Below are positions 52,188 to 55,226 of a DNA stretch of 64,000 nt, piece after piece. The notes below the pieces were generated by a model. The model worked only from the letters and a program-made list of their open reading frames with translations, ran no database searches and was not told the DNA's origin. How positions within the stretch are numbered: the first letter of the stretch is position 1; each line of letters begins with the position of its first letter. Location: contig PEWE01000011.1 in NCBI GenBank assembly GCA_002779605.1, positions 1 through 64,000 on the forward strand. Reading direction: 5' to 3'. Both the position numbers and the translations under genes were made by a program. The DNA is from Zetaproteobacteria bacterium CG06_land_8_20_14_3_00_59_53. GTDB lineage: Bacteria > Pseudomonadota > Zetaproteobacteria > Mariprofundales > Mariprofundaceae.

Positions 52188-52257
52188 ATCGAAACGGTAC
52201 GTTCAGAGGCGTTGAAAAGGAAGCAGGGGGATCGGCTTGTGAAAAGGGTTGGGTTAT

Positions 52258-52573
52258 TCACTCGAATGAGGCAAGTTGTTTGGAAAGTGCAGGAATCTTG
52301 CGTGAGATAACATCCCAGACAATGTCACGATCCAGACCGAAATACTCATGCATGGCGGCATTGCGGAAAGCCACGATTTTGCGCCATTCGATCTGCGCGT
52401 TTTGTCCTCGAATCTCAGCGGGAATCCGGTTCGCAGCCTCACCGATAATGGTCAGATTTCGCAAAACAGCATCCTGAACCAGTTCATTTGTGATTCATCC
52501 CTTCACAAAAGCGCTGAACCTTGGCGCAGGCATGCTGCATATCATGGACATACAGCCGCCATTCACGCGGCAC
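52258..52573 (-). pseudogene. hepT: Frameshifted HEPN toxin HepT
   Basis: Read leftward from GTG 52573, the N terminus is VPREWRLYVHDMQHACAKVQRFCEGMNHK and then stops at TGA near 52517. The following frame reads TNELVQDAVLRNLTIIGEAA and continues to 52258 with the intact R-x4-H-x-Y motif RNAAMHEY. About 3-8 residues and the frame are missing between the two pieces. HepT RNases degrade RNA via that motif and are held off by an MNT partner. The 3' fragment could start only at TTG 52464. It is decayed or a sequence error. Confidence 0.72.
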
Positions 52574-52851
52574 GGATGGCCTCTCTCTCGATAAAAGGCG
52601 CCAGTTCGGGGCGGATGGATGCACGGGTCAGTAAATCAACCGGCGAATGTAGCAGGTCCTCAAGATAGAATTTCAGGTCCATATATCGATCAAAGTCGGG
52701 ACGGGAAATGAATTCCACCTGGATATCCACATCGCTGTCGTCTGTTGCCTCATCGCGCAGAACCGAACAGGTACAACGACAACACATCGAATCGTTTCAG
52801 TTCCTCACGATGCTCAGCAATGAGCCTTAGGGCTTCTTCCTTGCGAATCAT
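52563..52851 (-). pseudogene. mntA: Frameshifted MNT antitoxin nucleotidyltransferase
   Basis: The ATG at 52851 opens MIRKEEALRLIAEHREELKR and continues to LFGSAR, where TGA follows. The downstream frame continues DEATDDSDVDIQVEF, the MNT G-S-x10-D-x-D site, to 52563. The GSx motif is split by loss of 2 or 5 bases near 52760. MntA AMPylates HepT tyrosines. With the HepT break, both partners are lost. Its stop overlaps the hepT start. Confidence 0.7.
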
Positions 52852-53191: not shown

Positions 53192-53248
53192 GGTGTATCA
53201 GCAGACTACTCCCCGGGAACGGTGGCTTCAATGATGTTCAGGAATGAA

Positions 53249-53274
53249 AAAGGGCGGCCCGAAGGCCGCCCTTT
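53249..53274 (-). terminator. Strong intrinsic terminator of the PuuD-like gene
   Basis: A perfect 11-bp stem (53249-53259 with 53264-53274) with a 4-base loop is followed leftward by T5 (complement of 53247-53251). It lies 31 bases after the stop codon of the gene at 53305. Confidence 0.9.
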
Positions 53275-53304
53275 CCATCCACCCTTGCGGGAGTCTGTGA
53301 CCGC

Positions 53305-53889
53305 TTAACCGAAGAAGCGGAAGTGAGCCGAGGATGCCATCAGCAGCAGCATCGGGATCGACAGGATGGTGTTGGTACGCGAAGCGATCAGGGCGCGTTT
53401 GCCCAGAGCCAGCTTCTCGTCGGCGGTTGCGCCTTCGACGATGCCCAGAATCTTCTTCTGTGCAGGCCAGATGATGAACCAGACGTTGAACCACATGATG
53501 ATGGCGAACAGGCCGCCGATGCGGATGTCCCAACCCGGGGTCATGCCGCCGTGCATCATGCCCATGTACAGGATGATACCGAAGATCAGGGTGAACATCG
53601 CACCCCAGCGGAACCACCACATCACACGACGAACCACGCTGTCGGTCTTGAACAGGTCAGCCTTGGTGTCGGCCGACAGGCCGCCCATCGACGGAACCTG
53701 GCAGAAGTTCAGGTAGTACAGCAGACCGATCCAGGTGATACCGGCCAGAAAGTGACCCCAGCGGGCCAGACCGCCCACCAGTTCGTTGATCGCAGGGCCG
53801 TTGCCGCTGGCCATGCCGATGCCCACGATGACAGCCGCCAGAACAAAGCCGGCAATCAGCGCGAGTTTATGATTTGTAAAAATACCCAT
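53305..53889 (-). CDS. PuuD-type membrane domain (DUF989-like)
   Basis: 194-residue membrane protein with about five hydrophobic helices. GLARWGHFLAGITWIGLLYYLNFCQVP, then RRVMWWFRWGAMFTLIFGIILYMG and GLFAIIMWFNVWFIIWPAQKKILG match the N-terminal membrane domain of PuuD, urate hydroxylase. The cytochrome c domain that PuuD has at its C terminus is absent. No urate or purine gene is near, so the activity is uncertain. ATG 53889 has GGAGG seven bases upstream. A divergent gene encodes a cytochrome c. Confidence 0.8.
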   Translation of the reverse strand: MGIFTNHKLALIAGFVLAAVIVGIGMASGNGPAINELVGGLARWGHFLAGITWIGLLYYLNFCQVPSMGGLSADTKADLFKTDSVVRRVMWWFRWGAMFTLIFGIILYMGMMHGGMTPGWDIRIGGLFAIIMWFNVWFIIWPAQKKILGIVEGATADEKLALGKRALIASRTNTILSIPMLLLMASSAHFRFFG

Positions 53890-53935
53890 GTTTTCCTCCA
53901 TTGGAAGTTTTCAGATTGCGCGCGATACTACCGGA

Positions 53936-53965
53936 TAATTCACGCACAAACACCTACGTGAATTA
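53936..53965. promoter_or_regulatory. 9-bp inverted repeat between puuD-like and cytochrome genes
   Basis: TAATTCACG (53936-53944) and CGTGAATTA (53957-53965) are perfect inverted copies separated by 12 bases. This lies in the 195-base divergent intergenic region, 47 bases before the puuD-like ATG. It may be a regulator binding site. The regulator is unknown. Confidence 0.4.
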
Positions 53966-54084
53966 CGGGGTAGTGATTCAGCCACACCGGGCGATCGCGG
54001 CTTGCATTGCGCGGCGCTTTGCCCTACCAATTCACCCCTTATGTTTGAATGCGGGACAGAACGAAAACAGCCGGAGACGAAGCG

Positions 54085-54363
54085 ATGACCGATGACAAGA
54101 CGACATGGAAACCGGGAAAGAGGGATGCGTTGTTTCTCGGTGTCGTCATCGTGGTCGTCACTCTGCTGGTGCTGGGCAGCAGTGAGCGCACCACCAAGCC
54201 GACGCCGGATGATGAAGTCCATCGCGCCGTGACCTCGCACGAGACCTGCCTGAGCTGCCACGGGCCTGATGGTGAACGCCCGCAGCCTGTCGGGCATGCG
54301 AGCAGCGTGCAGTGTTTCCAGTGTCATACCCAGCCGAAGGGCTGGCAGGGTAATGCCAAATGA
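54085..54363 (+). CDS. Small membrane-anchored diheme cytochrome c
   Basis: 92 residues: cytoplasmic N terminus (MTDDKTTWKPGKRD), one membrane helix (ALFLGVVIVVVTLLVLG, about 16-32) and a periplasmic part with two heme sites, CLSCHGPDGE and CFQCHTQPKG. The heme count and anchor suggest electron transfer at the inner membrane. ATG 54085 has GGAG eight bases upstream. The stop overlaps the nadK start, so co-transcription is likely. Confidence 0.85.
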   Translation: MTDDKTTWKPGKRDALFLGVVIVVVTLLVLGSSERTTKPTPDDEVHRAVTSHETCLSCHGPDGERPQPVGHASSVQCFQCHTQPKGWQGNAK

Positions 54364-55226
54364 AAACCGTCGGTATCAGCATCAAGCGCGGGAACGAGCG
54401 CGCGACAGAGCTTGCGCTTGAGCTGATCGACTGGCTGAAGAGTCAGGGCAAAGCGGTTCGTATCGATGCCGACATGCAGGATATCTGCGGTGAAAACTGT
54501 ACGCCGATGCAGGACATGCCATCGGCGGTGGACCTGATGCTGGTGCTCGGCGGCGACGGCAGCCTGCTCAATGCCGGTCGCCACTTCATCGGTTCGGAAA
54601 CGCCTATTCTGGGCATCAACCTCGGTCGTCTTGGTTTTCTCACCGAGGCGCCGGTGGATGATATGTTCCAGGCTGTGGCCACCGTGCTCGACGGCGGCGG
54701 CGAGGTGGTCCGCCACTTCAGCCTGCGCGCCGAGGGCTGGCGCGACGGCACGCTGCTGGCCAGCGGCAATGCGATGAACGATGTGGTGCTGCAACGCAAC
54801 CGGCACCCGCGTATGATCGAATTCGAGATGCGCGTGGGCGGGCACTTCGTGTTCCGCGTGCGCGCCGACGGTCTGGTGCTGGCCACTCCGGCAGGCTCCA
54901 CGGCCTATGCCCTGTCCGCCGGCGGGCCGATCGTGCACCCGGGGCTGGATGCCATCACCGTGGCACCGGTATGCCCGCATATCCTTTCCAACCGGCCGAT
55001 CGTGTTGCCGGCCAGCGAGTCCATCAGCCTGCGTCTGACCGATGTGCCGGCACCTGCGGCGATGAATCTCGATGGCCAGATGGTGCACGAGATACTCGAA
55101 GGCGATGAGATCCGCGTGTGCAAGGATGGCGGGATTTCGCTGGTCTATCTGCCGGGACGCAATTACTACAAGGTTCTCAGGAACAAGCTGCACTGGACCG
55201 GCCGGGCCGAAGAGAACAAGGCCTGA
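54360..55226 (+). CDS. nadK: NAD kinase NadK
   Basis: Phosphorylates NAD to NADP. 288 aa. Core motif LMLVLGGDGSLLNAGR with GGDG, GINLGRLGFLTE, ASGNAMNDVVLQR, LATPAGSTAYALSAGGPIVHP. It is the ATP/polyphosphate-dependent bacterial type, cytosolic. It has no membrane or extra domain. recN follows by 31 bases. Confidence 0.96.
   Translation: MKTVGISIKRGNERATELALELIDWLKSQGKAVRIDADMQDICGENCTPMQDMPSAVDLMLVLGGDGSLLNAGRHFIGSETPILGINLGRLGFLTEAPVDDMFQAVATVLDGGGEVVRHFSLRAEGWRDGTLLASGNAMNDVVLQRNRHPRMIEFEMRVGGHFVFRVRADGLVLATPAGSTAYALSAGGPIVHPGLDAITVAPVCPHILSNRPIVLPASESISLRLTDVPAPAAMNLDGQMVHEILEGDEIRVCKDGGISLVYLPGRNYYKVLRNKLHWTGRAEENKA

Follow-up and report, generated by a model that had tools for sequence, protein, structure and literature searches.

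The locus described here raises the question of how two divergently encoded proteins belong together: a membrane protein resembling the membrane domain of the urate oxidase PuuD, and a small diheme c-type cytochrome. PMC4562309 describes PuuD as an eight-helix DUF989 domain fused to a cytochrome. The pair might represent a split version of this enzyme, a redox module made of two genes, or two independent genes placed back to back. The locus is part of a 64,000-nucleotide stretch from Zetaproteobacteria bacterium CG06_land_8_20_14_3_00_59_53 (contig PEWE01000011.1), the whole of which is called the window below. The organism is related to marine iron oxidisers. Comparisons within its class, Zetaproteobacteria, refer to a sample of 78 genomes.

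Gene layout of the locus

Two divergent genes are present at positions 53305-54363, as given in the initial annotation, and the distance between them is exactly 195 bp when the ATG codons at 53889 (membrane gene) and 54085 (cytochrome gene) are taken as starts (Table 1). The ORF of the membrane gene is open from 53901, and its relatives begin at the ATG at 53889 (MGIF...). It was also correctly noted that the membrane protein ends without a cytochrome domain: the ORF is devoid of CXXCH motifs and reaches its stop at 53305. Among the matches listed, the closest named relatives are from Zetaproteobacteria (Mariprofundaceae and Ghiorsea).

A small nucleotidyltransferase gene (NTP_transf_2, Pfam) is encoded at 52254-52787 of the window. 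The second small ORF beside it is HEPN-like by eye, and the two may form an MNT-HEPN pair.

Table 1. Features of the divergent gene pair and its surroundings (coordinates refer to the window)
Feature	Coordinates	Strand	Basis and remarks
Membrane protein of 194 aa, stand-alone short DUF989 (Urate_ox_N) type, predicted to have five long helices	53305..53889	-	PF06181 over cut-off; start from relatives; AlphaFold2
Membrane-anchored diheme c-type cytochrome, 92 aa	54085..54363	+	Two CXXCH plus invariant His46 and His71; 75/78 class genomes
NAD kinase gene (nadK)	54360..55226	+	Pfam NAD_kinase; overlaps cytochrome stop by 4 bp
Divergent intergenic region, 195 bp	53890..54084	.	Between membrane gene and cytochrome gene
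9-bp inverted repeat TAATTCACG / CGTGAATTA	53936..53965	.	Without conservation in G001-G003
Element upstream of membrane gene	53948..53968	-	By eye in several genera; one exact copy in genome
GC-rich hairpin followed by U-run, terminator-like, just 3' of membrane gene	53242..53280	-	Fold -34.8 kcal/mol, z -3.6

The membrane protein and the short DUF989 family

The membrane protein matches Pfam family Urate_ox_N (PF06181/DUF989) with 47.3 bits (E 2.5e-12; cut-off 26.9 bits), and the best stretch corresponds to profile positions 174-241 of 295 only. It is the sole match of this profile in the 2.37-Mb genome. Within the class, 58 of 78 genomes have a PF06181 match, in every case located in this one short gene, which the other 20 lack. 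A profile made from 13 relatives led to at least 590 confirmed relatives, of which 80 named ones were fetched; CXXCH is absent from all 80 (three being short fragments), and each of the 45 aligned relatives matches PF06181.

Short DUF989 proteins without a cytochrome are already known. According to the Discussion of the 2015 PuuD paper (PMC4562309), they form a group whose four helices are the equivalents of PuuD helices I, II, V, and VI, and their gene contexts are unlike that of puuD. The protein from the window agrees with this group in its partial domain match, the missing C-terminal cytochrome, the I/II/V/VI core, and a context unlike that of puuD. It differs by an additional N-terminal fifth helix and by the divergent diheme cytochrome gene which adjoins it in nine Zetaproteobacterial genera. 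The protein is a member of this common stand-alone family rather than a split enzyme, and its initial description as a domain split from its cytochrome is not supported, given that the short cytochrome-free proteins are a family of their own.

Searches beyond DUF989 gave no match for the membrane protein in PHROGs, in NCBIfam (up to E 1, TIGR00701 included), or to the b561 models of Pfam, and comparison of its profile with the sequences of solved structures gave nothing at E 0.1. When single sequences from the locus were compared with solved structures, matches to ribosomal protein L21 (E 0.46-0.95) were dismissed as chance. Since neither a solved structure nor a characterised family is matched significantly, every statement on function made below is an inference.

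With respect to urate, the wording of the initial annotation was cautious ("not necessarily urate", and no purine gene nearby); the first point is supported, and the second can be extended. Two families acting downstream of urate oxidation, HIU hydrolase (PF00576) and OHCU decarboxylase (PF09349), were found in none of the 78 class genomes, the control genomes being positive, so that they are absent from the whole genome and from the class and not just from the vicinity of the locus. A split PuuD, that is, a urate-oxidising enzyme whose cytochrome domain is now a separate gene, would account for the partial PF06181 match and for a cytochrome gene 195 bp away. However, only part of the 295-position domain is matched, and neither the full-length eight-helix DUF989 domain nor a fused C-terminal cytochrome was found; short cytochrome-free forms are on record in PMC4562309; and the PuuD cytochrome carries a single CXXCH with Met as ligand, whereas the one from the window combines two CXXCH with two additional invariant His. 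Both urate-pathway families are absent from all 78 genomes. The distribution is thus already evidence against this reading, which we consider extremely unlikely. What is shared with PuuD (COG3748) is the homologous part of the membrane domain; the full domain and the fused cytochrome are lacking, the class has no urate-pathway partners, and the neighbouring cytochrome is of another type. The membrane protein presumably does not act on urate.

In alphaproteobacteria, the short DUF989 gene occurs together with SecD/SecF (25 of 83 loci), an SQS_PSY protein (17), and a DUF498 protein (11), counted anywhere in the flanks examined (loci L110, L111, L116, L120, L121, L122, L137, L143, L153, L160, L162, L163, L164, L170, L171, L072, and L073). 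To the families SQS_PSY and DUF498 belong NDUFAF6 and NDUFAF3, which act in the assembly of mitochondrial complex I. In genome G058 (L074:4772-6496), the gene of the short DUF989 relative comes after one for a radical SAM protein, PqqE-like by eye.

Structure model and conserved residues of the membrane protein

The AlphaFold2 model of the membrane protein (45 sequences, mean pLDDT 95.1) consists of five long helices, an N-terminal one (7-30) and a four-helix core (34-68, 85-113, 120-147, 156-189). This core would be the counterpart of PuuD helices I, II, V, and VI. Foldseek returned cytochrome b6 chains as best matches, at E 0.19 and above and none of them significant, and in the VIA-align rows with Z 9-13, b-type cytochromes (Z 9-12) are mixed with unrelated helical bundles.

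Invariant residues among the 45 sequences include H46, N61, R94, T100, N135, W141, P142, Q144, S170, R171, N173, and S177. Judged by helix direction, the polar ones (N61, R94, N135, W141-P142-x-Q144, S170-R171-x-N173) cluster toward one membrane face, while His46 is deep in one helix and toward the opposite face. If the topology given for PuuD in PMC4562309 applies, the polar cluster would be on the cytoplasmic side. At its C-terminal end, the last helix carries a second histidine, shared by all 30 class proteins and by 33 of the 70 proteins from elsewhere once three fragments are excluded. We infer a cofactor or small-molecule site, perhaps for a b-type heme or a quinone, not for urate. Because the second His is present in only 33 of 70 proteins outside the class, the heme reading may not extend to every member of this widespread family, which has a strongly conserved polar pocket.

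The invariant His of a small helical membrane protein would also suit a HemJ-like protoporphyrinogen oxidase or another heme-handling enzyme, and there are weak sub-threshold matches to UPF0093, the HemJ family, in 4 of 45 relatives (and to DUF2269 in 4). The genome, however, has a HemJ gene of its own (G000:C7:20637-21053). A replacement of HemJ was rejected: TIGR00701 was searched over 61 genomes, and the patterns of the two genes are not complementary, four genomes (G011, G020, G027, G038) being devoid of both. We regard a HemJ-like or other heme-handling enzyme function as improbable.

In 13 relatives, the N-terminal helix is absent and a similar helix is found at the C-terminus, as after circular permutation (L112, L129, L141, L144, L151, L152, L167, L173, L175, L176, L177, L179, and L181). 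Using hhalign, the N-terminal helix (54 relatives) matched the C-terminal part (14) with E 5e-5, compared to 0.09 for the control against the core.

The diheme cytochrome

The cytochrome has a hydrophobic N-terminal helix and carries the motifs CLSCH and CFQCH. Both CXXCH motifs, His46, and His71 are invariant in 13 diverse relatives, which fits the expectation for bis-histidine hemes, and both hemes are probably of this type. The score against Paired_CXXCH_1 (PF09699) is 19.5 bits, below the cut-off of 20.6, and 9 of the 13 relatives match this family at E 0.01 or better. Like the doubled-CXXCH cytochromes of PF09699, the protein has two CXXCH 22 residues apart and extra invariant His as candidate ligands; it differs from them by its 92 residues with a single anchor helix, its sub-cut-off score, and its restriction to Zetaproteobacteria in the sample searched. 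Its score against TIGR03153, the family of NrfH-type quinol dehydrogenases, is far below cut-off (12.8 bits, cut-off 134.2). Its profile found nothing at E 0.01 among the sequences of solved structures, no match was obtained in PHROGs, and its structure model is poor (mean pLDDT 71.8).

The cytochrome was found in 75 of 78 class genomes, including all 39 with a completeness of 90% or more and a contamination of no more than 5%. Two of the three genomes without it are 69-70% complete and are also devoid of the membrane gene; the third is 73% complete. Among 320 Pseudomonadota of other classes (398 genomes searched, 78 of them from the class), only two had weak matches, mostly to multiheme proteins. 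This distribution makes the cytochrome look like a hallmark of the class.

The cytochrome gene adjoins nadK in 25 of 26 called cases in the fetched neighbourhoods, genomes without the membrane gene included, and the two are probably cotranscribed. Further neighbours are putative recN, gmhB, and acetyltransferase genes. In genome G015, which is devoid of the membrane gene, a protein clustering with an Fe/Mn superoxide dismutase is encoded upstream of the cytochrome gene, in the place of the membrane gene. Superoxide dismutase genes were also seen in the membrane-gene flanks of 6 of 83 relatives (loci of the superoxide dismutase observation: L078:4439-5017 and L072:6890-7489).

Co-occurrence and linkage of the two genes

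Both genes are present in 57 of the 78 class genomes, 18 have only the cytochrome, one has only the membrane gene, and two have neither. The initial annotation had named a lack of co-occurrence in relatives as the result that would refute its reading. The two genes do co-occur; yet this in itself says little because the cytochrome is nearly everywhere in the class. Of the 57 genomes with both, 36 have the genes head to head, all divergent, with gaps of 155-813 bp by match coordinates, and this arrangement is found in 9 of the 14 genera having both genes. For the other 21, the genes are clearly apart in 20, and one pair (G085) is at a contig edge; ten of the 20 cases were read together with their flanks, and in the other ten the contig extends 1.2 kb or more beyond the membrane gene on its upstream side. 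Among called cases, the membrane gene adjoins the cytochrome gene in 10 of 23 (three loci outside the class and one miscall are included in the 23). The 36 adjacent pairs together with the 18 lone cytochromes therefore indicate an old divergent neighbourhood which is often kept and is dispensable.

Two further observations concern the surroundings of the membrane gene. Several head-to-head genomes keep the pair but have different genes on the far side of the membrane gene, and in genomes with the genes apart (for example G009 and G037) the membrane gene can stay with two genes from the left side of the window. A frame with paired CXXCH is located within 1.5 kb of the membrane gene in 5 of 7 cases inside the class, the two negatives being Ghiorsea, and, by six-frame scan, in none of the 73 relatives outside the class (named relatives fetched, out of at least 590; 66 of the 73 loci are covered with at least 1 kb upstream).

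We find it reasonably probable that this Zetaproteobacterial locus consists of two back-to-back genes that are independent of each other, one for a short stand-alone DUF989 protein and one for a class-hallmark cytochrome. The head-to-head layout probably existed early in one family and was then kept or lost genus by genus. The cytochrome, which could pass electrons between a partner in the inner membrane and soluble cytochromes of the periplasm, is not dependent on the membrane protein. This has to be weighed against a two-gene redox module, in which the DUF989 protein would be the b-type or quinone-reactive subunit and the diheme cytochrome its periplasmic electron partner, as a two-gene counterpart of the fused PuuD. 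The arrangement, always divergent and found in nine genera, goes beyond a passing accident and could point to a functional pair. The pair being kept next to a variable far-side gene in several genomes, and the conservation of His46 and of the C-terminal His in all 30 class proteins examined, point in the same direction. However, 18 of the 75 cytochrome-bearing genomes are devoid of the membrane gene, near-complete ones included, the genes are clearly apart in 20 genomes, and no relative outside the class (0/73 of the named ones) has a paired-CXXCH neighbour. On balance, we rate such a module as rather unlikely, and a functional link between the two genes is loose at most. A more far-reaching version makes the cytochrome a so far unrecognised obligatory piece of Zetaproteobacterial, iron-oxidising electron transport in all members, including those without Cyc1, with DUF989 as a facultative membrane partner and the two as a quinone-cytochrome c module on the PuuD fold; we give it little credence. 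Under the preferred reading of two independent genes, the locus combines a membrane protein of known kind with an adjacent cytochrome that is a hallmark of the class.

Relation to electron transport in iron oxidisers

Pairing a b-type membrane subunit with a diheme cytochrome is not a new idea for Zetaproteobacteria. A cytochrome b/diheme cytochrome c cluster (Cytbc) of iron oxidisers, with a fused counterpart that has a cytochrome b561 domain, is described in PMC5513912 and PMC5566968, where the cluster is said to be present in all isolates. By contrast, the membrane gene of the window is missing from 20 of 78 genomes, and its product has no b561 match; judged by these descriptions, the cluster is probably a different system.

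The most interesting remainder of this analysis is an anchored diheme cytochrome as hallmark of an iron-oxidising class, present in every good Zetaproteobacterial genome searched and, apart from two weak matches, in no other class sampled. According to PMC7029218, cyc2 is the only pathway gene common to all Zetaproteobacteria, the Ghiorsea group is devoid of cyc1, and high expression is seen for at least 14 putative cytochromes of the periplasm. The cytochrome from the window is a concrete candidate for a periplasmic electron carrier of iron oxidisers, above all in Ghiorsea, for which that source reports no Cyc1. A literature search surfaced no description of it, which is no proof of novelty as the tables of PMC7029218 list many periplasmic cytochromes.

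Intergenic region and transcription

The 9-bp inverted repeat which the initial annotation placed between the genes exists (53936-53944 / 53957-53965) and is part of an imperfect repeat of 18 nt. Chance would seldom produce such a repeat: of 2000 dinucleotide shuffles, 35 had an exact 9-bp repeat within 60 nt, and arms with 15/18 complementary positions appeared in 1 of 300. Nevertheless, the repeat is absent from three intergenic regions of the same genus, and its interpretation as a conserved operator was rejected. Of the 16 other intergenic regions examined, one has an exact 9-bp repeat. A different dyad (15/18 positions) is shared by three genomes from another genus that are very close to each other.

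The right arm of the repeat overlaps the element upstream of the membrane gene, which was recognised in several genera by eye only. Its pattern with up to two mismatches has 2 sites in the genome compared to 5 for the reversed control, thus giving no sign of a regulon. The degenerate form has one exact site and no excess over the control, so that the element looks like a part of the membrane gene's promoter rather than a regulon signal. A promoter scan gave one weak sigma-70-like site (0.4 expected).

The head-to-head arrangement may allow co-regulation of the two genes. A simple terminator scan listed nothing, and the hairpin at 53242..53280 was obtained by folding; because this strong hairpin with its U-run directly follows the membrane gene, the latter is probably transcribed alone.
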